Shown here: positions 1 through 40,126 of the stretch, piece by piece | Layout of the letters: each line of letters opens with the position of its first letter | Position numbering within the stretch: the stretch's first letter is position 1 | DNA from: Coniochaeta sp. PMI_546 | Taxonomy: Eukaryota; Ascomycota; Sordariomycetes; Coniochaetales; Coniochaetaceae | Assembly: GCA_021432605.1 (NCBI GenBank) | Contig: MU271145.1 | Coordinates: 2,232,001 to 2,296,000 of the forward strand | Direction: 5' to 3' | Length of the DNA stretch: 64,000 nt | The notes under the pieces: generated by a model | Databases searched by the model: none | Told to the model about the DNA's origin: nothing | Seen by the model: only the letters and a program-made list of their open reading frames with translations | Translations under genes and position numbers: made by a program

Positions 1-1393
1 GAAGCTCAGCCTGGTCGATATCCATGCCATTATTCTCTTCCAGGGGCTTCCGATTCCCGCTCACCACCCGGCCAACGCTCGATCCACTGGATCCCGGGCG
101 CATGATCCGAGAGATTGGGGGCCTAGCCTTCTTCAAATCTCGGGAGGCAGTGGCCCCAATCGTGGCAGCTCCTGAGTTCGGTTTCGGCACATTTGACTTT
201 GGGAATACGTTGAGTCGCGCGCTCCTCCGCGGTTCTTCGCCCGGATTCTGGCGCGTCTGACCAGGATGCGCAGGGTGCCCAGAGACTGTGCGTTTCCTGT
301 CAGCTGCAGCTATGGAGAGACTGGACCCTCGGAATATCGATGAGGTGCTGTCCGCTAGAAGCTCCGTCGGCTGGTCCTGGGTCTTCTCTCTCTTCTTTGA
401 TCCTACACGGTAGCTCATCCGTGGCGGAGGGTCGATCATGCTCTGGTCTGTCGCGCCGCGTGCCCTCCTAGCGGGAGCTTGTGGAGGCTCAGACGGATAT
501 GTAGCACGGGGTGCAGGGACATCTCCTGTTGAGGCATGGCCTAACGGTGTTTCTGTCCCATCAGCGCCGTTGACGTTGCCTGTGCTCGCCGCTAGCCGGG
601 ACCGAGCTGCGGCAATCTTGGACATGAAGTCGTTTTCACCCGACTCCGAGAAGATGATACTATTGCTTGGTGCATCTTGGTGTGATGATGAGCGTGGTAT
701 ACCAAAGGGGTCATTCACGTCCTGGACGACCGATTGCAGGGCTGACTTCTTGTGTATCGGCTCTAGCGGGTTCGTCGCAACACTCTCTTTCTGATCCGCA
801 GCTGTACTGCTGGACTCGAGGTCGAAGTTTTTGAGCAAGGTTTCGTTCGCTTTGAAAATGTTGGGTACCCTGACGCTGACGCCCATGTCGCACAGGCTGG
901 TAAAGGCGTCCCACATGAAGGGATTCGACTTCAAAGCTTCCTCGAAGTTTGAGATAGCCTTCTTCTTGTCGTCATATCCGCGATACAGCTTCCCCAGTAG
1001 GCAGCAGACTGCTGCAGTATCGGCATAGGGTGCTCGGGCACCGTTACTATGCTTTCCAAGGTTGCTCTTATTGGCCCATAGTCCTCTGGATTTCTCCAGC
1101 GCTGTGATGCCATCCTTGTACCGGTCCAACTGCAGACAGGCCTGCGCAAAGACAAAAGCGCATCCAAGGTGTATACCCCTGTACCCCGCAGACTTGCTGA
1201 CTTCATAGGCGGACTGATGGTCTCCGAGTCTGAGATGGCACAGGGCGACTATGTAAGCGGATTCGCCCGACCGAGGATCCTGAGCTTGCAGTCTCTCAGC
1301 GAAGAAGAGCGCGTTGTCGTATGTGAAGTTGTCGAGGTGATAAAACACTGTCTGCTTCAGCAGAGCAGTGACCGTAGCACCATTCGGCGCCAT
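1..1393 (-). CDS. cdc27: Anaphase-promoting complex subunit Cdc27/APC3/BimA, N-terminal part (cut by left edge)
   Basis: Scaffold TPR subunit of the anaphase-promoting complex, the nuclear ubiquitin ligase that drives mitotic exit. The frame opens at an ATG at 1393 and stays open without an intron to base 1, giving about 464 residues; the C-terminal TPR superhelix lies outside the window. The N-terminus begins MAPNGATVTALLKQTVFYHL and runs into the Apc3 domain with stretches such as YDNALFFAERL, AYIVALCHLRLGDHQSAYEV and FAQACLQLDRYKDGITALEK, which are helical TPR-like pairs. A further TPR-like stretch (KKAISNFEEALKSNPFMWDA) follows near residue 155. From about residue 190 the protein becomes a Ser/Pro/Arg-rich linker, including GRVVSGNRKP near the edge, as in fungal BimA proteins. 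Family assignment rests on this architecture and motif memory, not a search. It is divergent from the 2541 gene. Confidence 0.87.
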   Translation of the reverse strand, partial: MAPNGATVTALLKQTVFYHLDNFTYDNALFFAERLQAQDPRSGESAYIVALCHLRLGDHQSAYEVSKSAGYRGIHLGCAFVFAQACLQLDRYKDGITALEKSRGLWANKSNLGKHSNGARAPYADTAAVCCLLGKLYRGYDDKKKAISNFEEALKSNPFMWDAFTSLCDMGVSVRVPNIFKANETLLKNFDLESSSTAADQKESVATNPLEPIHKKSALQSVVQDVNDPFGIPRSSSHQDAPSNSIIFSESGENDFMSKIAAARSRLAASTGNVNGADGTETPLGHASTGDVPAPRATYPSEPPQAPARRARGATDQSMIDPPPRMSYRVGSKKREKTQDQPTELLADSTSSIFRGSSLSIAAADRKRTVSGHPAHPGQTRQNPGEEPRRSARLNVFPKSNVPKPNSGAATIGATASRDLKKARPPISRIMRPGSSGSSVGRVVSGNRKPLEENNGMDIDQAEL

Positions 1394-2540
1394 GATGTAG
1401 CCAACAGAAAACCGGAACCCAACCAAAACAGAGCGACGATCGAATGCTACCGGTGTGGACGATCCATAGGGATCGTATGTGTGCCTCCGCCGTCACAGAC
1501 AAGAACCGAAGGAGACCGGACGTTCTGCTCGATTCACGGTGGGCCGTCTGGTCAGTGGCAAGCACGAGCAGAGTGCGGGCGAAGCGTCGGAAGTGCGTCG
1601 GAGGGGTTCCTCGCAAACAACTAATCGTAAAGATGGGGCTGTATTGCTGGTGCCTTTGCTCGGATCGATCGAGAAGATGCTGGATTAAAAATTATGTACT
1701 GGACAGGCGTAGAGCAACCGACGAGATATCGTGATCCAATCACGATGTCAACGGGCTCCGGTATAACTCAACGTGGGGATAAGCTTCGCCAAAAGTACTC
1801 GGGTGGTCTCGATATGTCGTATTGATTAAGAGGACAATAGCAGGTACGATTTCGGCAAGGCAGGGTGCAGGTAGGACGTGGTTCAAGGTCGTCGAATGCT
1901 AGGAGACAGACATATCCGACAACTGTGAGTCGAGGGTGAGGAAACAGCGGCCCCCGTCAGGGAAAGGTGAGAAAAAAGGGAGCCCTGCCTCGCACCTTGG
2001 TCCGTCCAGCTATGATACGACACAAGTGGCCCGTAGATACAATAATCAGGCAGGAGCTGGCCTGAGAACAGTCGAAGGCGACTTCGTTTTTCTACGTTCT
2101 TTTTGCGCTACGAAGGCGGCACGTAAGGTAACTCTGTCCTTCGCGATGTTGTGATGCTTGCAGTTCACCCACTATAGCAATCCAAATGATTGGCTGCGCG
2201 TGCTTCTTAGCCTTGGTGGTTGGCACCCGGGGCAACAGCGAACCGCCTGCAAGCGCCACCTTGCGGACGGCGCTAGAGGAGCATTTCAGCCACTGTATTT
2301 TAGACGACTTTGCCGACGTAGCCACACCTTTGGGCTTTGATCCCGTAACTGTACTAGCGTCAAGCTACCTTAGTGAAGGTACCACCACCTGGTTTAGTGC
2401 CAGCTGGTTTTCTCACCAGCTTCTCACTGCTCTATCTACGTCACTTGCATTGCTGTAACGAACGAGTTCTCTGTGTTCCCCCAGACCCCTTTCTTCCCCC
2501 CTTGAAACTACAAGCAAGTGAATATACGATATATCTCACC
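1394..2540. other. Divergent intergenic region, cdc27 / SND2-like gene
   Basis: About 1.15 kb between two genes that point away from each other, so it should hold both promoters and 5' leaders. A CCAAT box lies at 1736-1740. Short open frames here have no recognisable protein features, and I support no gene. Confidence 0.6.
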
Positions 2541-3029
2541 ATGGCACAAAAGGCAAGAAAAGACCGAGCCAAGAGCAACGCTGTGGCACTCAACAATCTT
2601 CACATTGGCTCTGCTGTGGTTAATGGCCTCTTCATCCTCTTCCACTACTTCTTCAAGACGCGGTCCCTGTTCTGGTGGTTCATCGTGTCTATCCCCAGTC
2701 TCGTCTGCCAATTCACGCTGGAGAGAACTGGAAGGCCGAGTTATGACCCTTCTACTGGTGCTCTCAAGTCCTCGGGCGAGGATCTCGCCGCCCAGGGTTT
2801 GACTGAGTATATGTTCGATGTGATCTGGGTCACGTGGGGAACCGTGCTTCTCGTCATCTTCTTCGGCAACTGGTTTTGGTTAACGTGGGCTCTGGTGCCC
2901 GCTTACGGAGCATACAAGGGCTACGGCTTGATGGGCGCCGCGAGACAGTTGGGCCAACTGAATGGCATGGCTACTGGCGCCGAGGGTGCCGCGCCTGCTG
3001 GGAATCGCAAACAGCGACGAGCGGCCTAG
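2541..3029 (+). CDS. SRP-independent ER targeting protein, SND2/TMEM208 family (DUF788)
   Basis: A 162-residue intronless membrane protein. The start ATG at 2541 (MAQKARKDRAKSNAVALNNL) matches the short basic N-terminus usual in the TMEM208/SND2 family; the frame is open further upstream but without conserved sequence. Hydrophobic segments follow at about residues 20-45 (VVNGLFILFHYFF, then SLFWWFIVSIPSLV) and 95-125 (WGTVLLVIFFGNWFWLTWAL). The C-terminus is short and basic (GNRKQRRAA), as in family members. In yeast Snd2 helps deliver proteins with internal or C-terminal membrane segments to the ER independently of SRP; that role is inferred here. It is convergent with the DUF3605 gene, with stops under 100 bp apart. 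Confidence 0.85.
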   Translation: MAQKARKDRAKSNAVALNNLHIGSAVVNGLFILFHYFFKTRSLFWWFIVSIPSLVCQFTLERTGRPSYDPSTGALKSSGEDLAAQGLTEYMFDVIWVTWGTVLLVIFFGNWFWLTWALVPAYGAYKGYGLMGAARQLGQLNGMATGAEGAAPAGNRKQRRAA

Positions 3030-3124
3030 ATCTCCTCTGTGTCAGCCCCGAAGCGCAGCTATTCCAGCAGATTTGTTATGGAGAACATCTATCATCGTCG
3101 TCTATAGTCTAAGCTTGCTGTGTT

Positions 3125-3846
3125 CTATGGACAAGCCGGGTCTCTCGTCCACTCGGCAAGCTGGCCTGGCTCTACATCTTTGACCATCACATGGATGTGC
3201 TCCAGCGCCCTGACGCTCTGCAAGGCGACCCAGTTCTTGAACCACATAACTCTATCCTCCCCACCGGGACCTAGCTTGTCAACAAAAAAACGCTTCACAA
3301 AGTCGCCTACGATTTTCCGGCTCTCAGGCGTCATATCCCCTGTCTCGGGATCGGTTGCGATGGCTGTGCGAGACCACACGACAATGTGGGTGATGCCCGG
3401 TCCAAAGCCGTATGGCCAGTCGTTGAGCAGGACACGGTAGTCAGATGGGTCGTCAAACGGCACACTTGATGCTGGCTGGAAAGGAGGTCGACCCCAGGCC
3501 TTCGGCAGGCGGTGAGCAAGGAGATAATTTGTCATGCTGCCATACTCGGCCTTGGTTTCAGCAGTCCATATCATATACCGGCGCAAGTCTGACGGCTTCC
3601 TCTTGAGGATGGCTAGATTGTTGGTTGCTGTTCATGGTTAACTACCGATCACTTGCGTTTTGTTATCTTCTTTTTCTTATGGGATGTATAGAAGATAGAC
3701 TTACCGATGATCTCCTTGAGTTCGTCCCAGTAATGGTACTGATACTCTTCATCTGTCAAAGACAAGACATACCTATCCGTATCGGTGAGTGGAAACGGCG
3801 CCTCCTCCACCTCGACGTTATTGGCGTTATCTCCATTGTCTCCCAT
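3125..3846 (-). CDS. DUF3605 protein, N-acetylglucosamine-induced protein 1 (Ngi1)-like
   Basis: Two exons (3846-3705 and 3627-3125) flank a 77-bp intron at 3628-3704 with donor GTAAGT and acceptor CAG, giving 214 residues. The junction restores DELKEIIATNNLAILKRKPS, and both exons carry family features: PFPLTDTDRYVLSLTDEEY, RRYMIWTAETKAEYGSMTNY, and DYRVLLNDWPYGFGPGITHI with VVWSR. These match the fungal DUF3605 family, whose named member is a GlcNAc-induced cytosolic protein of unknown biochemistry. The start at 3846 (MGDNGDN) was chosen because the upstream in-frame extension (ATG at 4017) is not family-like, though it cannot be excluded. Function remains unknown. Confidence 0.82.
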
Positions 3847-4425
3847 CGTGCCGGTCCCAACCTTGAACCTCAACTGAGTTGCCCTTGTGTTGCATGAAGC
3901 TAAGCCGAAGGGAGTGAGGGCTGTCAGTCGGGGACAAAAAATAGGGCCGGACAAGATCCAGTGCTTCTCAGTGACAATACGTTGCACAACCGGGCGTAGA
4001 AGATGCGAAATCGGCATGATATGGCAAGGTACATTACCTTACCTTACCTTATGTACCTTACATTGATTCAAATGATGTGGATGATGCGCGCTGACGCCGT
4101 GGAGTCTGATTTGACCAATGAGCGACCGAGGGCCGCACTTTTCACCGCCCACCGTTTCTGAGATCTCCCAGGATTGAAATGCCGGTGCACGGCAGGAAAC
4201 GGGATGAGCGGCGGGATCTAGAAAAATATCGGCCCACTTCGGTCCCTCAACAAGTCGAACTTCTCATCTCAGTCGGGACCCGATGCGGAGGAACCCCTTG
4301 AGCTCTAGGTCCGATTCTTGCTTTTTTTAAGAAGCTTCTCAAACACGGAGGGGTATCATTGACGGCGACGCTTACTCCCATTCTTGACAATTCGGAGCTG
4401 TCGAGCTCAAACAACGGCGATCAAC
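3847..4425. other. Divergent promoter region, DUF3605 gene / cbr1
   Basis: About 580 bp between divergent genes. It contains a cluster of ACCTT repeats (see the separate repeat entry), an ATTGATTCA-type stretch and pyrimidine tracts before the cbr1 start. No gene is supported. Confidence 0.6.
4027..4060. repeat. Short tandem ACCTT / TACCTTAC repeat in promoter
   Basis: Between 4027 and 4060 the pentamer ACCTT recurs three times in tandem and again after a short gap, preceded by AGGTA. Similar TACCTTAC or ACCTACC stretches recur upstream of other genes in the window (44955-44977 and 46195-46220). It may be a regulatory element or simply microsatellite-like promoter sequence. Confidence 0.6.
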
Positions 4426-5485
4426 ATGTCCGAGCCAATGCTCTCCAAGAAAATGTTTGATGGGATATACATACCCGCCGGTCTGCTCGTTGTCGGCACC
4501 GTCATTGTGAAGAGGGAGTGGACGCCGTGGGCCGTCCTTCTTGCCGTTATTCTGGGTGCAATTAAGGCATACAGAGTCCGTAAGTATAAAGCTTTTCAAA
4601 AAGGATCGGCTCTCCTGCGCACTGGCGAGACTAACACACCCTCCCACGCAGAACCGAAGAAGGTGCTCAAGCCCGACGTCTTCCAGGAGTTCGAGCTCAA
4701 GGAAAAGACCGTCATCTCCCACAATGTCGCCATCTACCGCTTCAACCTGCCCACCCCGAACTCGATCCTCGGCCTCCCAATCGGCCAGCACATCTCCATC
4801 GGCGCCGCCATCATGCAACCAGACGGTAGCGCCAAGGAGATCGTGCGCTCCTACACCCCGATCAGCGGCGACCACCAGCCGGGCTATTTCGACCTGCTCA
4901 TCAAGTCGTACCCCACCGGCAACATCAGCAAGCACATGGCCGGCCTCGCCGTGGGGCAGACAATCCGCGTCAAGGGCCCCAAGGGTGCCTTCGTCTACAA
5001 GCCCAACATGGTGCGCCACTTTGGCATGATTGCTGGCGGTACCGGCATCACGCCCATGCTGCAGGTTATCCGCGCTATCATCCGCGGACGTGCGGCGGGC
5101 GATCGGACCCAGGTCGACCTCATCTTTGCCAACGTCACGCCCCAGGATATCCTGCTCAAGGAGGACTTGGATGCGCTCGCGGCCGAGGACAAGGGCTTCC
5201 GGGTACACTATGTGCTGGACAAGCCGCCCGCGGACTGGACTGGTGGTGTCGGTTATGTCACTGGAGATATGATTACGGTATGCTCACCTACTGTCACCGT
5301 TTTATGTTGGACTGCTGTGGCTAACGTTTATCCAGAAATGGCTTCCCAAGCCTGCTCACGATGTCAAGATCCTCATCTGCGGACCGCCTCCTATGGTCAG
5401 CGGTTTGAAGAAGACTACCGAGGCGCTCGGCTTCCAAAAGGCACGGCCCGTCAGTAAGCTTGACGACCAGGTGTTTGCCTTCTAA
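4426..5485 (+). CDS. cbr1: NADH-cytochrome b5 reductase (membrane-anchored)
   Basis: FAD enzyme passing electrons from NADH to cytochrome b5 (or, in fungi, to ER desaturases and sterol enzymes) at the ER or outer mitochondrial membrane. Three exons (4426-4579, 4652-5277, 5336-5485) with introns of 72 and 58 bp give 309 residues, the usual family length. An N-terminal hydrophobic anchor spans about residues 12-48. FAD-binding RSYTPIS and [15 protein letters not shown] are present, followed by the NADH domain with [16 protein letters not shown] and, in the last exon, [15 protein letters not shown]. The protein ends DDQVFAF, the typical C-terminal aromatic tail. Intron 1 is a multiple of three with no stop, so frame alone would hide it; the junction [12 protein letters not shown] and clear GTAAGT/CGCAG sites support removal. 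Confidence 0.95.
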
Positions 5486-14064: not shown

Positions 14065-15688
14065 TTAACAGTGGCGCCGGCGCCTCTTGTCTGACTCGCC
14101 ATCCATGAGTTGGCCATCCTCGGAAGATTCATCGGACGAACGACGCTTCCTGCGGTTGACGATCTCGCCGTTAGGGGTAGGTTCAGAAGACATCTGCGGC
14201 GAAAGTCCGGCTTCATGACGCATATTTTTGATATCACGTCGTCTCGCATTGATGCAGTAGTTCGAGATTTGTTCTGTAGATAAACGAGGATTGTTAGCGC
14301 CAGTCCTGCCAAACTATCTTCTTGACAATGATTGATGAAACCCAGTGAGGATACTAACCTGGCGAGAGACCTGTCTCTGCGATCCATTGTTTCTTCGTCT
14401 CTTCATCCGGATAAGGGTGGTGCAGGTGGTTCTTAAACCATGCCATCATTTTCTTCTTCGCTTCTGGAGGCAGGTTACCGCGCTTCTTGCGTTTCGCCAT
14501 CTCGGCAAGCGGCCCCGATCCATCACTCCTCTCTAGACGGCCAGCGACATGATAGCCTGGAGGAGCGGCATAGCCCCCGACAGGATACGTGTTGGCAGGA
14601 GCAAAGGGATTACCGGGACCGCTGGGACCCAGTCGGTAGGAACTTTCGTCGTGAGCGTCTGAAAGCCACGCGCCGGTCCGGTCATACAGCATTGACGCAG
14701 AGCGTGAATGTGCGTGGCTTGTAGGGTGATAGAACCCAGTGGTGAAGGCATCAGACAGCGATCGAAGATCTCTGGTAGGCGCACTATGAGTGATAGCACG
14801 GGTGTCCGTGAACGGAGGACGCTGGTTGATCTTGGCTCTTTCCGAGGCCGGAGCCCGGTCGTTAGTATTATGCGTCTGAGCTCGCAAGGCAAGCGTAGTC
14901 ATCCAGCAGCCACTTTCGGGCTGCGTAGTGTATATGAGTTGACGTTGCTCTCCTAATCTGCGTCTTCTGGTGGGTTCTGAATCCTCTTCCAGGTCGCGGT
15001 TTCGTATCCCTGCCATCGGCCTCCACTCCGACGGCCAACGGTCTGAAGACCTCGTGACTGATGGTAGGACACGCGGTTCAGCGGATCGTCCATGCGAGAA
15101 CGAACTAACTCGAGCGTTCCGAGCAGATTCTGGGATGGGCTCCCAAGCTCGTCGGGGGGAGTAGCAAAACTGACGGCTTCGGGGAGAATTCGGGAGGCGA
15201 CAATCATCTCCTGGAAGCCGGTCAATGTCTGCTCCCTCTGCAGAGTCGTTTCGCTCCGATAGGCTTGATCTGTCTTCATACGATACGGCGGTGAAGGAGT
15301 CGAGCGAGTGCATTCTAGGCCAGCTCTCGTGCCGAAGATGCGTGTAATGGCCACCTGGAGTCGCCGGTCCTGGGGAATCGGCGACCGTTGATGGACTGGG
15401 ACCGGCGTTCCTGCCGTTGAACTCCGCGGGCTCCGCTTCTCCAAGCATCTAGCTAATCGTCAGTTATCACCACTGTTAGGCGAGGGTCAAGGGACTGCCT
15501 CGTACTTCTCGTATAGACGGGAGTCGCGGCAGAGCGACCTCCGCCGGGGCGTTGAGGCCATATGACGGTTGAATCCATTGTAGTGATGTGGCGTGCTCGT
15601 CCTCATCGCCATCCCTAAGTCGTAAAGGTCGGAGTATGTCCCTAGCTCTGGGAGCAGGGTCCCTGCGGGAGAACGAAAACTCTCCCAT
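14065..15688 (-). CDS. TALE/KN-type homeobox transcription factor
   Basis: A nuclear DNA-binding regulator. Three exons (15688-15506, 15448-14359, 14273-14065) with introns of 57 and 85 bp give 493 residues. The homeodomain starts near residue 380 with KRKKRGNLPPEAKKKMMAWF and carries the three-residue TALE loop (HHPYPDE). Intron 2 splits the domain, and the join restores ETGLSPEQISNYCINARRRD. Asn51 and Arg53 (INARRR) are kept, but the helix-3 positions usually Trp-Phe or Trp-Met read Tyr-Cys. A long disordered Ser/Arg/Pro-rich region precedes the domain; the tail after it is acidic then basic (ESDKRRRRHC). Exon 1 (MGEFSFSRRD ... ALPRLPSIRE) is inferred from an in-frame GT/TAG join; an alternative start is the ATG at 15448. 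Targets are unknown; fungal KN factors often act in development. Confidence 0.88.
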
Positions 15689-26362: not shown

Positions 26363-29300
26363 TCACTTCGCGCCAGGCTTGATCCTGAATCTCCAGAACG
26401 AATGTCCGCCCGCCTGCGTCTGCACCCTCCCCTTCTTGTGACTCTCATCCGCCTCGCCCTTCGCACCGGCAGCCCCAACCCCAGCCCCAGCCTTCTGGAA
26501 ACCCGGATCGCTCCTGAGGCTTTCATCATTCTCAAAATCATCAAAGTCATCACTCGTCGGCGTCCCAAGCGGATCCCCAAACTTATCCACCTCCCCACCG
26601 CCCGAAGCCGCCCTGTTATATTTCGGCAGCGGCGTCCCGGGCGTGGCAGGCCTCTTTCCGGCCCCAGCCTCCTCAGCCGCCGCAGCGGCCTCCCGCATCT
26701 TCTCTAGGCCCCGGACAAGCGGCTCGACCATTCCGGGATCGAAGTCCTCGCCGTCCCTCTGCTTATCCTTCCTGTAGCTCGGCGCCGGGTCGACGGTGCG
26801 GTACGTGGGCGTCCGCATCGGCCGTAGCGCGAGCGCCTTCTTGTACAGCGCCGGAAAGCGCATCTCCAGCTCTGCCTCGAGCTCGCGCTGGTGCTCCTCC
26901 ACGGCCCTGACGCGCTCCGCCTTCTTAGAGGGGATCAGCTCCGTAGGCGCGCGGTCCGAGTTATCGCGTTCGCGGAGCCAGGCCCTGTAGCGTTCCTCCG
27001 CTTCTTCCGACGCGGACCCGCTGGTGGTGGATTGCTGCCGGAGGCTGTCGAGGTATTCCTTTGCCCGCTTCGTCATCTTGTGGCCGCTGATGTACTTGTC
27101 GAACGACGACGAGAACTCGTGGTAGTGGCCCTTGAGGATGAAGCACTCCCCGCCCCACCCCTTGCGGCGGAACTTGTCGTATATGGCGTCCGCGACGGGA
27201 CACTCCCAGCTGAACTCGACGACGCGGTCATAGAAGACTACGCAGCGCGCGTGTGACCACTGCGCGAAGGTGCGGCGGCTCTGGTCGTCTGTGAAGGTGT
27301 CTTGTATCATTTCGAGTGAGGTGTTCTCGATGAAGCTCACCGGGGCGCGAAGATTGATCGCTTCGTGGATATGGGACTTCTCGAAGGCGCTGGGGGCTCG
27401 GAGGTCGACAACTAGGACTTTCTTGGTTGGGAATATGTCTAGGAGCTGCTGTAGTTCGCCTGGTAAGATCATCCGTGCTCCGTCCTTTGTCTCGGGTGGC
27501 AAGTCGTTGATCTTTAGATTTTGCAGGTTTTTGTTCATCTTCTCTTGCTGGCGGCGGTAATGGAACCAGACCTGCCGTTTCGTCAGTGCACTGTTCTTCG
27601 CAATAGCAAGCATAAACTTACATCAACATCGTGCGTCTCGATCCCAAGGTTCGAGGCTAAAAAGTCTGTAACAGACGAGTCCGGCATAGGTTCCTTCTGG
27701 AAATATTCCTCGAGCCGTTCGATAACATGCCTTGCAAGTCTAGGAGTCCTCGGAACCTCTTCCTCAGCACCATAGACTCGTCTGCGGGAGCTCCTGGTGT
27801 GACTGTGAATCATCGTCCTAGCAATACCCTGCTGCATAAGCTCGCCACCGCCCGCGTCCAGGCTGGACGATGATGTATGCACTCTCGAGAGGGTTCCTAC
27901 AGTCGGCGCCGAAGCGGACGAAGGGTGAGGCCGTGCGGTCATGCCGCTTTCTAGTGTTGTTGTTAACGGAGTCGGCATCGGGCGCAGTGAGGGGGCCGTT
28001 TGTATGCGGTTGTTCCCAGCGATCAACGACCTGCTATCTCGTGCTGTTCTGGACACAGGGAAATGACGGATGTGGTCTTCATGTTCCTTCACGAATGTCG
28101 TGCCGGTATAAGAGGACTGATTATCATCTGCGATCGTTTCCGGTTCCACCTCTAGGTTCCGCGTCGGAGCGACTTGACTTGTCGTCGGGGCCTCAGTTCG
28201 GACTGGTACATCAGCCTCAGTTGTTGTGCCTTGCTCTGCTGTTTTCTTCGAAAGGAGGAGATTGTTGGATCGAATGAAGGTAACGAATGAACACGCTGGA
28301 TCGTCAGGTAGAAGGTCCCAAACCATCACTGGTAACGATAGTAGCAGCGTTGTGGAATGGCTTTTGAAAAGGCCCTGGACCTTGCAGTGCTTAGCAAGGG
28401 CCGGGAATGATGCCAGCCATTGCTCCCACGCCTCCAAATCCAGTTGTTGATCATCCTCTAGAGCTAATGAGATCAGGACGTGCGGATTATCCTCGTTCGG
28501 TTCGTTGGCTCTTACGAGCTCGTTGCTCGGCGGATCTATGCTCTCGTCTCCAAATCGACCGATGCGAGGTACACTGGGTTCTTGGGGCGGCGCTGGTAGC
28601 CTCCTGGCTTCAGGAATAAGTCTGCTGAATTCAATGCTTGCTGCCTTGTGGTCAGAGGTCATCATGAAGTGGACTGGAGTCGACCGAGCTTCGAAACGTC
28701 TTCCATTGATCATTATCGGTCTCGGATGTTTTAACCGTGCTAGGATCTCTGCGTGTAGCATGGCCGCTGAAAATGTGCGGTGGCTCCATTCGGACAAGAC
28801 TTCGATAAGCACGTTGGTGAATGAGTATCGACCTGGATCGGGTGCTATGGCGTCCCAAGCCGAGGCGGATATTGTCTCTGTTATACTTCGACCGGTGGCA
28901 AAGGTAGCGCTTGCAGCTCCTGCACAGCAGTCCAGCAGAATCAAACAGTCCGATATTGACCTCTCCAAGAGGATCTGTATAGCACTCCATCTGTCGCACA
29001 CGTTAGAGCAATGTATCATATATGCGAGACGAAGAAATGTGTCCTACTGCAGTGTCGGTGATCCTGTGCGGCGAGTTGCGCACCAAGTACTTTGCCTGGA
29101 CTCATCTATCCTTGCATGTCCGGCGTAGTAGACAATGAAAAGCGTGTCTTCAGAGTCGTGCTTCGTGATCATGTCCGCCACCTTCACGGTGAGGGCGAGC
29201 TGGGCGTTATCGGAGGGAATGGCAAAGACATCTGTCTCATAGTTGTAGCTTTCCCGAAGACACTTCTCCAGATCGTCCAACTCCGGCACGACCCATAGAT

Positions 29301-29764
29301 CGTCGGTTTGCCAGTGTAGCAACAGAGCTTGAACTTTGCTGTACCTCTGTGTCGACCGCACCTGGTTGGGGAATGCCCTATCGGCGGACTATGGCGATGT
29401 CAGTTGGAATACGGCACTTACCACTGGCGTGTTGACTTACATCTTGCACGGCCTGAACAAAGGAATCTAAATGTTTGACATGATAGCTCACACGGCTGAT
29501 ATCATGAGTGGCCGACGGTGTGCCAGCCTCAACAGAGCCATACTGGAATGAATCCTGGCTGTTAGCACGGGGTCTCTGGACGAGACCTTGGTCTCGAGGC
29601 ATCTTGAGTACAGAAGATTGGACGTGTAGTGCTCATGTCAAGAGAAGAAGAGAAGTATGACGGAGCAATGGACATACAGTCGAATCTGCGCTGCTTAGAC
29701 TATTGATATCGGCCGGCATCCGAGTCCGTATTGGGATGAAGTACGGCGACTGTGGGTCAGTCAT
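26363..29764 (-). CDS. Caspase-like / homeodomain-like / rhodanese-like fusion protein
   Basis: Five exons (29764-29678, 29602-29441, 29388-29048, 28990-27622, 27571-26363) with introns of 75, 52, 57 and 50 bp give 1055 residues; all four joins keep frame. Residues about 95-300 form a peptidase C14-like fold: ALLLHWQTDDLWVVPELDDL, then FIVYYAGHAR (catalytic His about 174) and CLILLDCCAGAAS (Cys about 218/219). The join SPTLQWSAIQILLE is typical of fungal caspase-like proteins. Residues about 605-665 resemble a homeodomain (LARHVIERLEEYFQKEPMPD, then DVDVWFHYRRQQEK) with the W-F and R-R of helix 3 but Tyr in place of Asn51. From about 693 a rhodanese fold follows (KVLVVDLRAPSAFEKSHIHE), where the active-site Cys position reads Asp (VVFYD, about 768). 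The C-terminus is low complexity. The 5' exon is the least certain. Function unknown; the role could be regulated proteolysis or signalling. Confidence 0.8.
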
Positions 29765-30394: not shown

Positions 30395-31997
30395 ATGCGG
30401 CAGCGTGTGACATTCATCACCAAGCCAGTAGATGCCCTCGACCCAGACAAACTCAGCATAGTTGACGGGACACTCACCGGTCCACTCATTTCTGCTGTTC
30501 GTGAAGACAGACTGACGTTTGCTCTGGATGAGCTACCCGGCGCTATTCAAAAGATCTTGAAAGATTCCCACGAGCTACATATCAGATGGTCAAGTCCTAC
30601 GCCATCCGAGACTGTGAGCCCTCTGGTTTCGAGGATTCCGCCTGGATTTCACGTGTTCTATACTCCCCGGAACGCTTCAGCTGCCGAGTCGTGAGTACGC
30701 CGTTGCGCTAATTCGAAGCGAAGGCTATGTACGCTAATGGAAGGGATAGAGAATCACTATGCCTGGCTCTACGGAGCCTGTTCGGGGACATCAACTGCCG
30801 CACACCAAAGGTTTGTCTGACATGCCTAGATCTATAACAAATGGACCCTAATATGATCAGCACTCCTTCACGTCACTTGAACAAGGCCGTTTCTCGCATG
30901 CCACGTCCTCTCAGTACTTTCAGCAGATGGACAGCTTGGCGCATTTCTCTGCTCATATGAAGAAAGTGCTGTGCCTACCTGACGATTCTGCATGCATCGC
31001 CGAATTGGCAAGGCTCGATGATGCAGCCTCTCTGGACATCTCTTATGATACCATCTCCCATGCCCTAAAATTTACTGTCACGTCACCTTACAAGAGACAG
31101 GAGATGCATATAACCTCCACGCCTGGTCTCAGGACAGAGGTGGGCATCTTGGCGGAAGACAAACCTCCCAACCTCGAACCATACGAGGTCGGTGTCTCTG
31201 GTCTGCTCACAGTTTTGGGCCAGGATTCAAAGGCATCGCCAACTCTGTTCTCCTTCCCATCACGACATAGGCAGGGCCAGGGTGCCTTTGATGTCAAACT
31301 TCTTGAGCCCACTGGCTTGCACCCAACCCTGCAGATAAGAATCAACTCCGAACGGCCTCTGGATGACTCGTCCTGTTCGCCGCACGCTTACTTCACGCTG
31401 CCGCGATACATCTTTCCGGACAAGTACCAGTTATCCGACGATCTCTTTCTCAACTCCAAGAACCTCACCGCGCTCCGCTACATCTCTCAACCGGTTGATC
31501 TCGAAGCGCCGGAATACGTCATGGACCTGTGGGGATCAGCAGTGCTCCTAGAGCTATCCCCCAAACAAGACCATATCCTTCAGCGGGGCTGGACCGCAGA
31601 GGTGCCGTTACATCTGCGGTATCTGTCGCCGACGGAAGGCGGATATCGCAACAAATCTATCCCCTACCCAGTGGTGTTCTGGGCTTGTCACGCAGAAGAG
31701 GGCACCAAGTTCCCTACTAACCCATTCGAACGCGTCAACCTAGGCTACGATGGCCTCTTTGGACCCCGTACGGTCTTCTTCCACATCCCTGCTGCGCCCG
31801 GTCTCGACAAGCTGCAGAACACAATTAGTGTTCCGGTACTCGATGCCAACAAGACGGAATGGGTAAATACCGGAACCGCGGCGGCCATTCTACTAGGTTT
31901 TGCTTGGGTACTGTGGAAGTTATATGTGTCATACTCGCAGCAGAACAGCAAACGGCCTCTAACGTCAAAAGACGTCGAGGACAAGAAGAGGAAATAA
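30395..31997 (+). CDS. pbn1: Pbn1/PIG-X, cofactor of GPI mannosyltransferase I
   Basis: ER membrane glycoprotein that partners the catalytic subunit Gpi14/PIG-M adding the first mannose to GPI precursors. Three exons (30395-30690, 30750-30810, 30861-31997) with introns of 59 and 50 bp give 497 residues. The start (MRQRVTFITKPVDALDPD) matches fungal Pbn1. The middle 61-bp exon supplies SLCLALRSLFGDINCRTPK, and the third continues HSFTSLEQGRFSHATSSQYF. The PIG-X domain is visible as PHAYFTLPRYIFPDKYQLSD, YVMDLWGSAVLLEL and LHLRYLSPTEGGY, then a Cys in VVFWACHAEEG. One C-terminal transmembrane helix lies near residues 456-475 (AAILLGFAWVLWKLYV) with a short basic tail. It is tail-to-tail with the sulfotransferase-like gene, 44 bp apart. 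Confidence 0.92.
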
Positions 31998-37165: not shown

Positions 37166-37339
37166 CTTGAAAATACAGCTCTAATATACCCAACAACAAG
37201 TCTACGCTCTGCGAGTGTGACAACGAAGCACCCCATTACGCTTCAATCGAGTCTAACCACCCGACTCACAACCACGCACAAACATACATTCTATAATACC
37301 ATACCTCTTTTCCTTTTTCTTATCTAATACACGCCCATC

Positions 37340-40126
37340 ATGAATTCCAAGATGGAGTTCACAGACAGGGCCAAGAAGGCATTGGAAGATGCCATGGTCC
37401 TGGCAGAGCAGTATGCTCACTCTCAGCTACTTCCCGTCCATCTTGCAGTAGCCCTCATCGACCCTCTTCCAGATCAGAGCAAGGACCAGCAAAATGCACC
37501 ACCAGGAACAAACGCTTCTCTCTTCAGACAAGTCATTGAGAGAGCTCATGGCGATCCTCAACTCTTCGACCGCGCGTTGAAGAAGATGCTGGTCCGGCTG
37601 CCTAGTCAAGACCCCCCACCAGAGCAGGTGTCGATGGCACCGTCATTCAACAATCTCCTCCGGAAATCCATGGAACTCCAAAAGGTGCAGAAGGACACCT
37701 ACATCGCCGTCGACCATCTGATCAGTGCCCTAGCGGAGGAGACTTCGATACAGACCGCGCTGAAGGAGGCCAACGTCCCGAAGCCGAAGCTCATCCAGGA
37801 CGCCATAACTGCCATCCGCGGCACGAAGCGAGTCGACTCCCGCAATGCCGATACCGAGCAAGAGAACGAGAATCTCGCCAAGTTCACTATCGACATGACC
37901 GCCATGGCACGGGAAGGCAAGATCGACCCTGTCATCGGCCGAGAGGAGGAGATCCGCCGAGTCATCCGTATCCTGTCTCGACGGACAAAGAACAACCCCG
38001 TACTCATTGGTGAGCCTGGTGTCGGTAAAACCACCGTCGTCGAAGGTCTTGCGCAGCGGATCGTCAACGCCGATGTCCCCGACAACCTCGCAGCATGCAA
38101 GCTGCTCTCTCTCGACGTCGGTGCTCTAGTTGCTGGCAGCAAGTACCGAGGCGAGTTCGAGGAGCGGATGAAGGGCGTTCTCAAGGAAATCTCAGAATCG
38201 AAGGAGATGATCGTCCTATTCGTAGATGAGATCCATCTCCTCATGGGTGCTGGCTCGTCTGGCGAGGGCGGCATGGATGCTGCCAACTTGCTCAAGCCCA
38301 TGCTTGCCCGTGGCCAGCTACACTGTATCGGAGCCACTACTCTGGCTGAGTACCGCAAGTACATCGAGAAGGATGCCGCCTTCGAGCGTCGGTTCCAGCA
38401 GGTACTGGTCAAGGAACCCTCGATTGGCGAGACCGTCTCAATTCTCCGCGGTCTCAAGGAGAAGTACGAAGTACACCACGGTGTCATCATCGCCGACAGT
38501 GCTATCGTGGCTGCCGCCAACCTTGCAGCCCGCTATCTGACATCTCGCCGGCTTCCTGATTCAGCTGTCGACCTGATCGATGAGGCAGCAGCGGCCGTCA
38601 GGGTCGCCCGTGAGTCTCAACCCGAGATCATCGACTCCTTGGAACGCCGGCTCCGGCAGCTCAAGATCGAGATCCACGCGCTGTCCCGTGAGAAGGATGA
38701 TGCATCGAAGGCCCGTCTTGCCCAGGCCAAGCAAGATGCGGAGAACGTCGAGGAGGAGCTCCGCCCGCTTCGTGAGAAGTACGAGAGCGAGAGGAAGCGG
38801 GGCAAGGACATTCAGGAGGCCAAGTTGAAGTTGGAGCAGCTCAAGGTGAAGGCTGAGGATGCCAGCAGAATGGGCGACCACGCTCGTGCTGCAGATCTTC
38901 AGTACTACGCTATCCCCGAGCAGGAGGCGGTCATCAAGAAGCTGGAACGTGACAAGGCAGCTGCAGAGGCTGCGCTCAGCGCCGAACATGCCGACACCGG
39001 CGGTTCTATGATCACTGACGTTGTCGGGCCCGATCAGATCAACGAGATCGTGTCACGGTGGACCGGCATTCCAGTCACCCGACTCAAGACTTCTGAGAAG
39101 GAGAAGCTCATCCACATGGAGAAGGCTCTGGGCAAGATCGTCGTCGGCCAGAAGGAGGCCGTTCAGTCAGTATCCAACGCCATCCGGCTGCAGCGGTCCG
39201 GCCTGAGCAACCCGAACCAACCACCAAGCTTCCTCTTCTGCGGTCCATCCGGTACCGGTAAGACGCTGCTCACCAAGGCGCTTGCTGAGTTCCTGTTCGA
39301 TGACCCCAAGGCCATGATCCGGTTCGATATGTCCGAGTACCAGGAGCGTCATTCATTGAGCAGGATGATTGGCGCACCACCAGGATATGTCGGCCACGAC
39401 TCTGGCGGTCAACTTACCGAGGCTCTGCGCCGGAAGCCCTTCTCAATTCTGCTGTTTGACGAAGTTGAGAAGGCTGCGAAGGAGGTTCTCACTGTGCTCC
39501 TTCAGCTCATGGATGACGGCCGCATCACCGACGGCCAAGGCAGAGTCGTCGATGCCAGGAACTGCATCGTCGTCATGACGTCCAACCTTGGCGCCGAGTA
39601 CCTGGCTCGTCCCAACGCCAAGGACGGCAAGATCGACCCGACCACACGCGAGCTCGTCATGAACGCCCTGCGGAACTACTTCCTGCCCGAGTTCCTCAAC
39701 CGTATCAGCTCGATTGTCATCTTCAACCGGCTCACACGCAAGGAGATCCGCAAGATCGTGGACCTTCGCATCACGGAGATCCAGAAGCGGCTGGCGGACA
39801 ACAACCGCAACGTCATCATCGACATCTCGGACGAGGCAAAGGACAAGCTTGGCGCTGCTGGCTACTCGCCCGCCTACGGTGCTAGACCTCTCGGCCGCCT
39901 GATCGAGAAGGAGGTGCTCAACAAGCTCGCCATCCTGATCCTCCGTGGAAACATCAAGGACGGCGAGAAGGCCCGCGTCGAGGTTGTCGATGGCAAGATC
40001 ACGGTGCTTCCCAACCACCAGGACAGCGATCTGGGCGATGAGGAGATGATGCTTGACGAAGATGATGAGGATGTTCTTTCGGAGCTTGCGCCGGACTCTA
40101 TGGATGAGGATCTCTATGATACTTAG
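37340..40126 (+). CDS. hsp98: Heat-shock disaggregase Hsp98/Hsp104 (ClpB family)
   Basis: Hexameric AAA+ ATPase that, with Hsp70/Hsp40, pulls polypeptides out of aggregates in the cytosol and nucleus; needed for thermotolerance. Intronless, 928 residues, the usual length. Order: Clp N domain ([20 protein letters not shown]); AAA1 with Walker A GEPGVGKT near 224, the pore loop [13 protein letters not shown] and Walker [11 protein letters not shown]; the coiled-coil middle domain about residues 410-540 ([20 protein letters not shown]); AAA2 with GPSGTGKT near 635, the second pore motif [10 protein letters not shown] and FDEVEKA; and the C-domain [20 protein letters not shown]. It ends in an acidic tail ([20 protein letters not shown]), as in eukaryotic Hsp104. 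The second ATG (MEFTDR) is a possible alternative start. No disabling change was seen. Confidence 0.97.

Follow-up and report, generated by a model that had tools for sequence, protein, structure and literature searches.

The homeobox genes PAH7 of Podospora anserina, MoHOX4 (MGG_06285) of Magnaporthe oryzae and NCU00100 of Neurospora crassa form a class for which a rhodanese domain is characteristic and which lacks an ortholog in Aspergillus flavus, as stated in a 2017 paper on the latter species (PMC5666362). Deletion of MoHOX4 is described as leading to smaller conidia (PMC2779367), deletion of CsHOX4, named as the MoHOX4 ortholog of Colletotrichum scovillei, as leading to larger conidia (PMC8406175), and deletion of pah7 as altering only the pattern of perithecia (PMC3360767); the effects in Podospora and Magnaporthe are thus mild. 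A related architecture is described from bacteria, where the caspase of the EACC1 systems is constant and its C-terminal domains come in up to 50 alternatives (PMC7159879). Here we analyzed a stretch of 64,000 nucleotides from the fungus Coniochaeta sp. PMI_546 (contig MU271145.1, positions 2,232,001 to 2,296,000; hereafter the window), in which a gene on the minus strand (26363..29764) encodes a caspase-like domain, a conserved middle domain, a homeodomain and a rhodanese domain in one chain. By sequence the gene is a member of the PAH7/MoHOX4/NCU00100 class, and we assign a probability of about 0.5 to the reading that its product acts in development as a caspase-like protease, to which docking modules are joined, and that its conserved output is most likely proteolysis.

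Homologs of similar length were collected using BLASTP (coverage 41-100%); 348 passed and 120 of these were listed and aligned together with the window protein (121 rows). Nearest among the relatives listed were P0001 (87% identical) and P0002 from Coniochaeta sp. 2T2.1 (80%), and P0003 from Coniochaeta ligniaria was 90% identical over 77% of the query. Long matches were obtained to three listed relatives named pah7 (P0026, P0028, and P0035) and to MGG_06285 itself (P0064), and the two domains that define the class, a non-TALE homeodomain (PF00046) and a rhodanese domain (PF00581), both scored above cut-off. Compared with the described accounts of PAH7, MoHOX4, and NCU00100, the protein examined here adds the caspase part and carries tyrosine at homeodomain position 51. 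The main texts, as distinct from the supplements, of PMC3360767, PMC2779367, PMC5666362, PMC8406175, and PMC3675110 do not contain the word caspase, and no paper relevant by title that links homeobox or homeodomain to caspase and to rhodanese or metacaspase was found within the open-licence PubMed Central literature. A prediction made earlier from the letters of this DNA (hereafter the original prediction) had held that no described system couples the three parts; gene class and rhodanese domain are in fact already in print (PMC5666362), and it is the caspase part that was not found in the texts covered.

The gene runs from an ATG at 29764 to a stop codon ending at 26363 and comprises five exons on the minus strand (29764-29678, 29542-29441 or from 29602, 29388-29048, 28990-27622, and 27571-26363). 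Introns 2 (29389..29440, 52 nt), 3 (28991..29047, 57 nt), and 4 (27572..27621, 50 nt) are bounded by GT and AG, and intron 1 has two in-frame acceptors 60 bases apart on the minus strand, of which the near one at 29603 gives an intron of 75 nt and a protein of 1055 amino acids, and the distal one at 29543 gives an intron of 135 nt (29543..29677) and a protein of 1035 amino acids, the spliced reading frame being open with both. The ATG, the stop, the four GT/AG introns and the 1055-residue chain of the original prediction were reproduced exactly, with the reservation that intron 1 probably ends at 29543. We prefer this distal acceptor because residues 30-49 of the 1055-residue model are missing from the alignment of P0003 and because the caspase dyad of P0002 is numbered 20 lower than in that model. 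The same residues are gapped in 84 to 116 of the 121 rows; about 17 of the gapped rows lack the entire N-terminal flank, and the shorter form is found in most rows with flanks. The near acceptor may be used as well, or both may be, since about 33 relatives align residues at this place; alternative splicing at intron 1 is a possible explanation, with the protein models of the relatives disagreeing on the intervening stretch.

Judging from the relatives, it is all but certain that the domains joined across intron 4 belong to one gene. Two listed proteins, P0268 and P0273, contain the caspase cysteine, the middle domain, the homeodomain and the rhodanese domain in this order without an insert, and two more, P0249 and P0253, contain the same domains with an insert exactly at the position of intron 4 that looks like an unspliced in-frame intron. 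That two adjacent genes, or a mis-assembly, were taken for one would agree with the change of reading frame from exon to exon and with the presence of the rhodanese exon alone in open reading frames (ORFs) of some relatives' contigs, and several further proteins among the 48 returned with the C-terminal half alone as query start or stop at the intron-4 splice point. We nevertheless consider two genes very unlikely, because the four relatives hold the caspase cysteine, homeodomain and rhodanese domain within one protein; in addition, the caspase cysteine and rhodanese Tyr767 are present in 120/120 listed relatives and homeodomain Trp48 in 116/120. The single chain with caspase-like, homeodomain and rhodanese parts in this order, as originally predicted, is therefore upheld by these four relatives, and profile and structure-prediction searches supported all three folds.

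The caspase-like domain spans residues 46-310 of the 1035-residue model (28591..29494, minus strand, with introns 2 and 3 inside) and was recognized by PF00656, by NF047832, and by its predicted fold. The His/Cys dyad that had been noticed by eye is confirmed by the alignment: His154 (YYAGHA; 29116..29118) is present in 120 of the 121 rows and Cys199 (LDCCAG; 28924..28926) in all of them, so that both occur in 120 rows, with a gap at the histidine in P0053. Of the four domains the caspase domain is the best conserved and the homeodomain the least, the numbers of columns conserved at 95% or more being 161/264 for the caspase domain, 45/81 for the middle domain, 32/128 for the rhodanese domain, and 8/60 for the homeodomain (121 rows). 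The Pfam model Peptidase_C14 matched residues 121-264 of the 1055-residue model with E 0.0016 and 18.6 bits, and 22.6 bits were reached with the caspase segment alone (curated cut-off 21.4). The predicted structure of the segment has a fold that was matched by caspases and MALT1 in a structure search, with 9-16% identity to caspases, MALT1 paracaspase, and metacaspases (clan CD, C14) in structural alignments. In a test set of eight caspase segments, five from this family and three from the C2H2 family described below, Peptidase_C14 was matched by 7/8. The PF00656 label is carried by 1/120 listed relatives (P0007), and standard annotation mostly misses the caspase-like domain of this family. 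The N-terminal caspase-like cysteine peptidase is probably active.

The homeodomain (27530..27759, minus strand; PF00046, E 4.6e-10) was matched at residues 615-664 of the 1055-residue model and is split by intron 4, which falls between residues 653 and 654 within helix 3, as the original prediction had placed it, at a position that some relatives share. Position 51 of homeodomains is normally asparagine, which is normally needed for base recognition and sequence-specific DNA binding. The window protein has tyrosine there (Tyr638 of the 1035-residue model, codon 27557-27559), and the 121 rows contain His (83), Arg (11), Asn (10), Tyr (6), Gln (3), rarer residues (4), and gaps (4), so that asparagine is found in 10 of the 117 rows with a residue and other residues in 107. 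Among the same rows Trp48 is kept in 117/117, Arg52 in 116/117, and Arg53 in 108/117; the fold is therefore under selection, and canonical base recognition probably is not. For PAH7 a non-canonical histidine at "position 54" has been described (PMC3360767), which we take to be position 50 in the numbering used here.

The rhodanese domain, of the type found in mitogen-activated protein kinase (MAPK) phosphatases (MKPs), lies at 27086..27469 on the minus strand (PF00581, E 4.8e-8, residues 694-808 of the 1055-residue model). Active rhodaneses and Cdc25-type phosphatases carry a cysteine in the active-site loop; at this place the window protein has aspartate (Asp748 of the 1035-residue model, codon 27227-27229), and the 121 rows have aspartate (110) or alanine (11). 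The domain appears to be non-catalytic and in its predicted structure resembles the MAPK-binding domains of MKPs: a Foldseek search retrieved the MAP kinase binding domain of MKP5 (2ouc, E 3.6e-6), the sequence matched DUSP6 (1hzm, E 0.0051), and the domains of MKP5, MKP7, DUSP6, and DUSP16 were among the best structural or sequence matches together with the rhodanese domain of a fungal rhodanese-protein tyrosine phosphatase, with the USP8 rhodanese domain ranking next or first in the structure searches. As in DUSP6, aspartate replaces the catalytic cysteine in the sequence alignment, and unlike in MKPs no phosphatase domain was found after the rhodanese domain by Pfam on the whole protein. 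The only other rhodanese match in the own-genome search (L022; C22:240500-247500, 1061-4432, minus strand) is 28% identical to the one described here and also has aspartate for cysteine; the ORF next to it contains HCSAGCGRTG, which we take to be a tyrosine-phosphatase-like signature.

Between caspase-like domain and homeodomain lies the conserved, unnamed middle domain (28255..28497, minus strand), which is alpha/beta in the predicted model and is followed by a long and poorly conserved linker to the homeodomain. The middle domain is shared with a paralogous family (hhalign probability 98.5%, E 1.5e-15). Relatives of the caspase part occur in the same genome (33.5 Mb, 24 contigs) on C17, C7, C3:1052k, and C14. 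The one on C17 (L018; C17:460000-466000, ORFs 3320-3781 and 1186-3291, minus strand) encodes a spliced protein of 869 amino acids in which the caspase and middle domains are followed by C2H2-like fingers in place of the homeodomain and rhodanese domain, and a profile comparison of the caspase and middle domains of both families aligned them end to end (hhalign E 1.4e-42). The fingers were read from the sequence and from the source names "C2H2-type domain-containing" and "Putative peptidase C14, caspase domain, Zinc finger C2H2-type", as none of the Pfam C2H2 models scored on the L018 protein at E up to 1. For this family 417 homologs were found, of which 120 were listed and aligned with the query (121 rows). 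The dyad cysteine is kept in 121/121 rows and the histidine in 91/121 (Tyr in 25, others in 5), and conserved columns number 73/229 in the caspase domain, 50/85 in the middle domain, and 112/189 in the fingers. The two families thus show opposite patterns, the homeodomain family keeping its protease with a drifting homeodomain and the C2H2 family keeping its fingers and losing its protease. Three further paralogs vary in their dyads: the one on C7 (L019; C7:1720500-1727000, about 2927-4238, minus strand) retains the histidine (YYNGH), has DAA in place of the cysteine motif and is likely a pseudo-caspase; the divergent one on C3 (L020; C3:1048500-1055000, 2591-4159, minus strand) has CYAGH and a cysteine motif altered to LLGCHV; and the one on C14 (L021; C14:522500-528500, 2222-3551, minus strand) has the dyad motifs YYGGHG and LLDCCYGG and a proline-rich C-terminal region.

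The best-scoring curated caspase profile was NF047832 (EACC1-associated caspase), which matched 8/8 segments of the test set and the window protein with E 1.5e-8 and 34.4 bits, far under its cut-off of 140 bits. In the own genome, where it touches the ordinary PF00656 gene on C7 (22 bits), this profile matched two places, neither of them this gene and both below cut-off. With their constant caspase and variable C-terminal domains the fungal proteins follow an EACC1-like plan, yet they are not members by the NF047832 cut-off. The bacterial system consists of two genes, including that of the membrane protein EACC1, so that the comparison holds for the caspase chain only, and the fungal proteins, unlike the bacterial EACC1-associated caspases, have a second constant domain in their middle domain.

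Also on the minus strand of the window, about 11 kb away, a TALE-class ORF (14354..15448) with a Homeobox_KN domain (PF05920, E 6.5e-8) is a probable pah5 ortholog. As pah5 and pah7 are described as "tightly linked" in Podospora (PMC3360767), this neighbor supports orthology of the caspase-homeobox gene to pah7. The PIG-X/PBN1 gene at 30852-31997 on the plus strand (PF08320, E 2.1e-68) is oriented divergently to the caspase-homeobox gene, and a long ORF at 37328-40126 on the plus strand encodes ClpB-type AAA domains (AAA_2, AAA_lid_9, ClpB_D2-small) of an Hsp104-like chaperone.

The protein may act mainly as a protease because its caspase domain is the best kept and its DNA-binding and rhodanese domains are without their key residues. 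The peptidase would then be switched on when the middle, homeodomain or rhodanese parts bind a partner or signal, and once activated it would cut a bound substrate or the linker of its own chain while spores and fruiting bodies develop. Several observations weigh against this. The dyad histidine is followed by alanine in 120/121 rows (one gap), in difference to the caspase superfamily, where the following residue is usually glycine; the whole protein stays under the Pfam caspase cut-off; PF00656 was matched at E up to 0.1 by 5/44 chosen relatives; and the genome searches with PF00656 and NF047832, in which exons are read apart, missed this gene. The Raptor N-terminal CASPase-like domain, which to our knowledge has no protease activity, was matched by 3/8 caspase segments (best E 1.7e-4), and an invariant cysteine alone is no proof of catalysis, since the sister C2H2 family keeps it in every row despite the loss of histidine in 30/121. 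A conserved Lys/Arg cluster, the docking motif of the MAPK-binding domains of MKPs, was not seen at residues 731-746 of the rhodanese domain. A role in transcription has to be considered because the homeodomain profile was matched in 44/44 chosen relatives, Asn51 is retained in some Podospora relatives, and the expression of transcription factor genes is described as changed in the Mohox4 mutant (PMC3675110).

The main rival accordingly holds that the protein is a homeobox transcription factor, in which the caspase fold serves only as a regulatory or dimerization module and DNA is bound non-canonically or via partners. In the literature the members of the family are regarded as transcription factors, with mutant phenotypes in development (PMC3360767, PMC2779367, PMC3675110, PMC8406175), the nearly constant Trp48, Arg52, and Arg53 and the 10 rows with Asn51 fit with this explanation, and the sister family keeps its fingers strongly and has lost the dyad histidine in a quarter of its rows; with Asn51 missing from 107/117 rows, the homeodomain the least and the caspase domain the most conserved, and the dyad untouched, we regard it as rather unlikely. 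The original prediction had suggested a protease-triggered sensor that releases a DNA-binding or phosphatase-like module, and a switch of this kind, in which self-cleavage of the linker would free the homeodomain-rhodanese half for the nucleus or for kinase docking, is conceivable. It would suit the long, unconserved linker and the constant caspase and middle domains with differing C-terminal domains, DNA-binding ones included, in two families, and auto-proteolysis has been proposed for the similarly planned bacterial EACC1 systems (PMC7159879). In the part to be released, however, Asn51 is gone from most rows and the cysteine of the rhodanese domain from all of them, which makes a released DNA-binding module doubtful and leaves a phosphatase-like one unsupported, and we consider release unlikely. 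The reading as a developmental protease is the one that we prefer, and we tentatively extend it to both families: filamentous fungi might own modular one-chain switches with a constant EACC1-like caspase and middle domain and exchangeable C-termini, two of which, the homeodomain-rhodanese part and the C2H2 fingers, would be DNA-binding in origin; an ancestral protease-controlled transcription factor may have undergone reciprocal decay, leaving MoHOX4/PAH7 mainly as a developmental protease.

Deletions of genes of this family, under the name of homeobox transcription factors, go back to 2009, yet a caspase-like domain is the most conserved part of the protein. If the protease is active, the mutant phenotypes in conidium size and perithecium pattern would become those of a caspase-like protease, and the bacterial scheme, in which effector domains are exchanged behind a constant caspase, would have its eukaryotic parallel in these fungal proteins.
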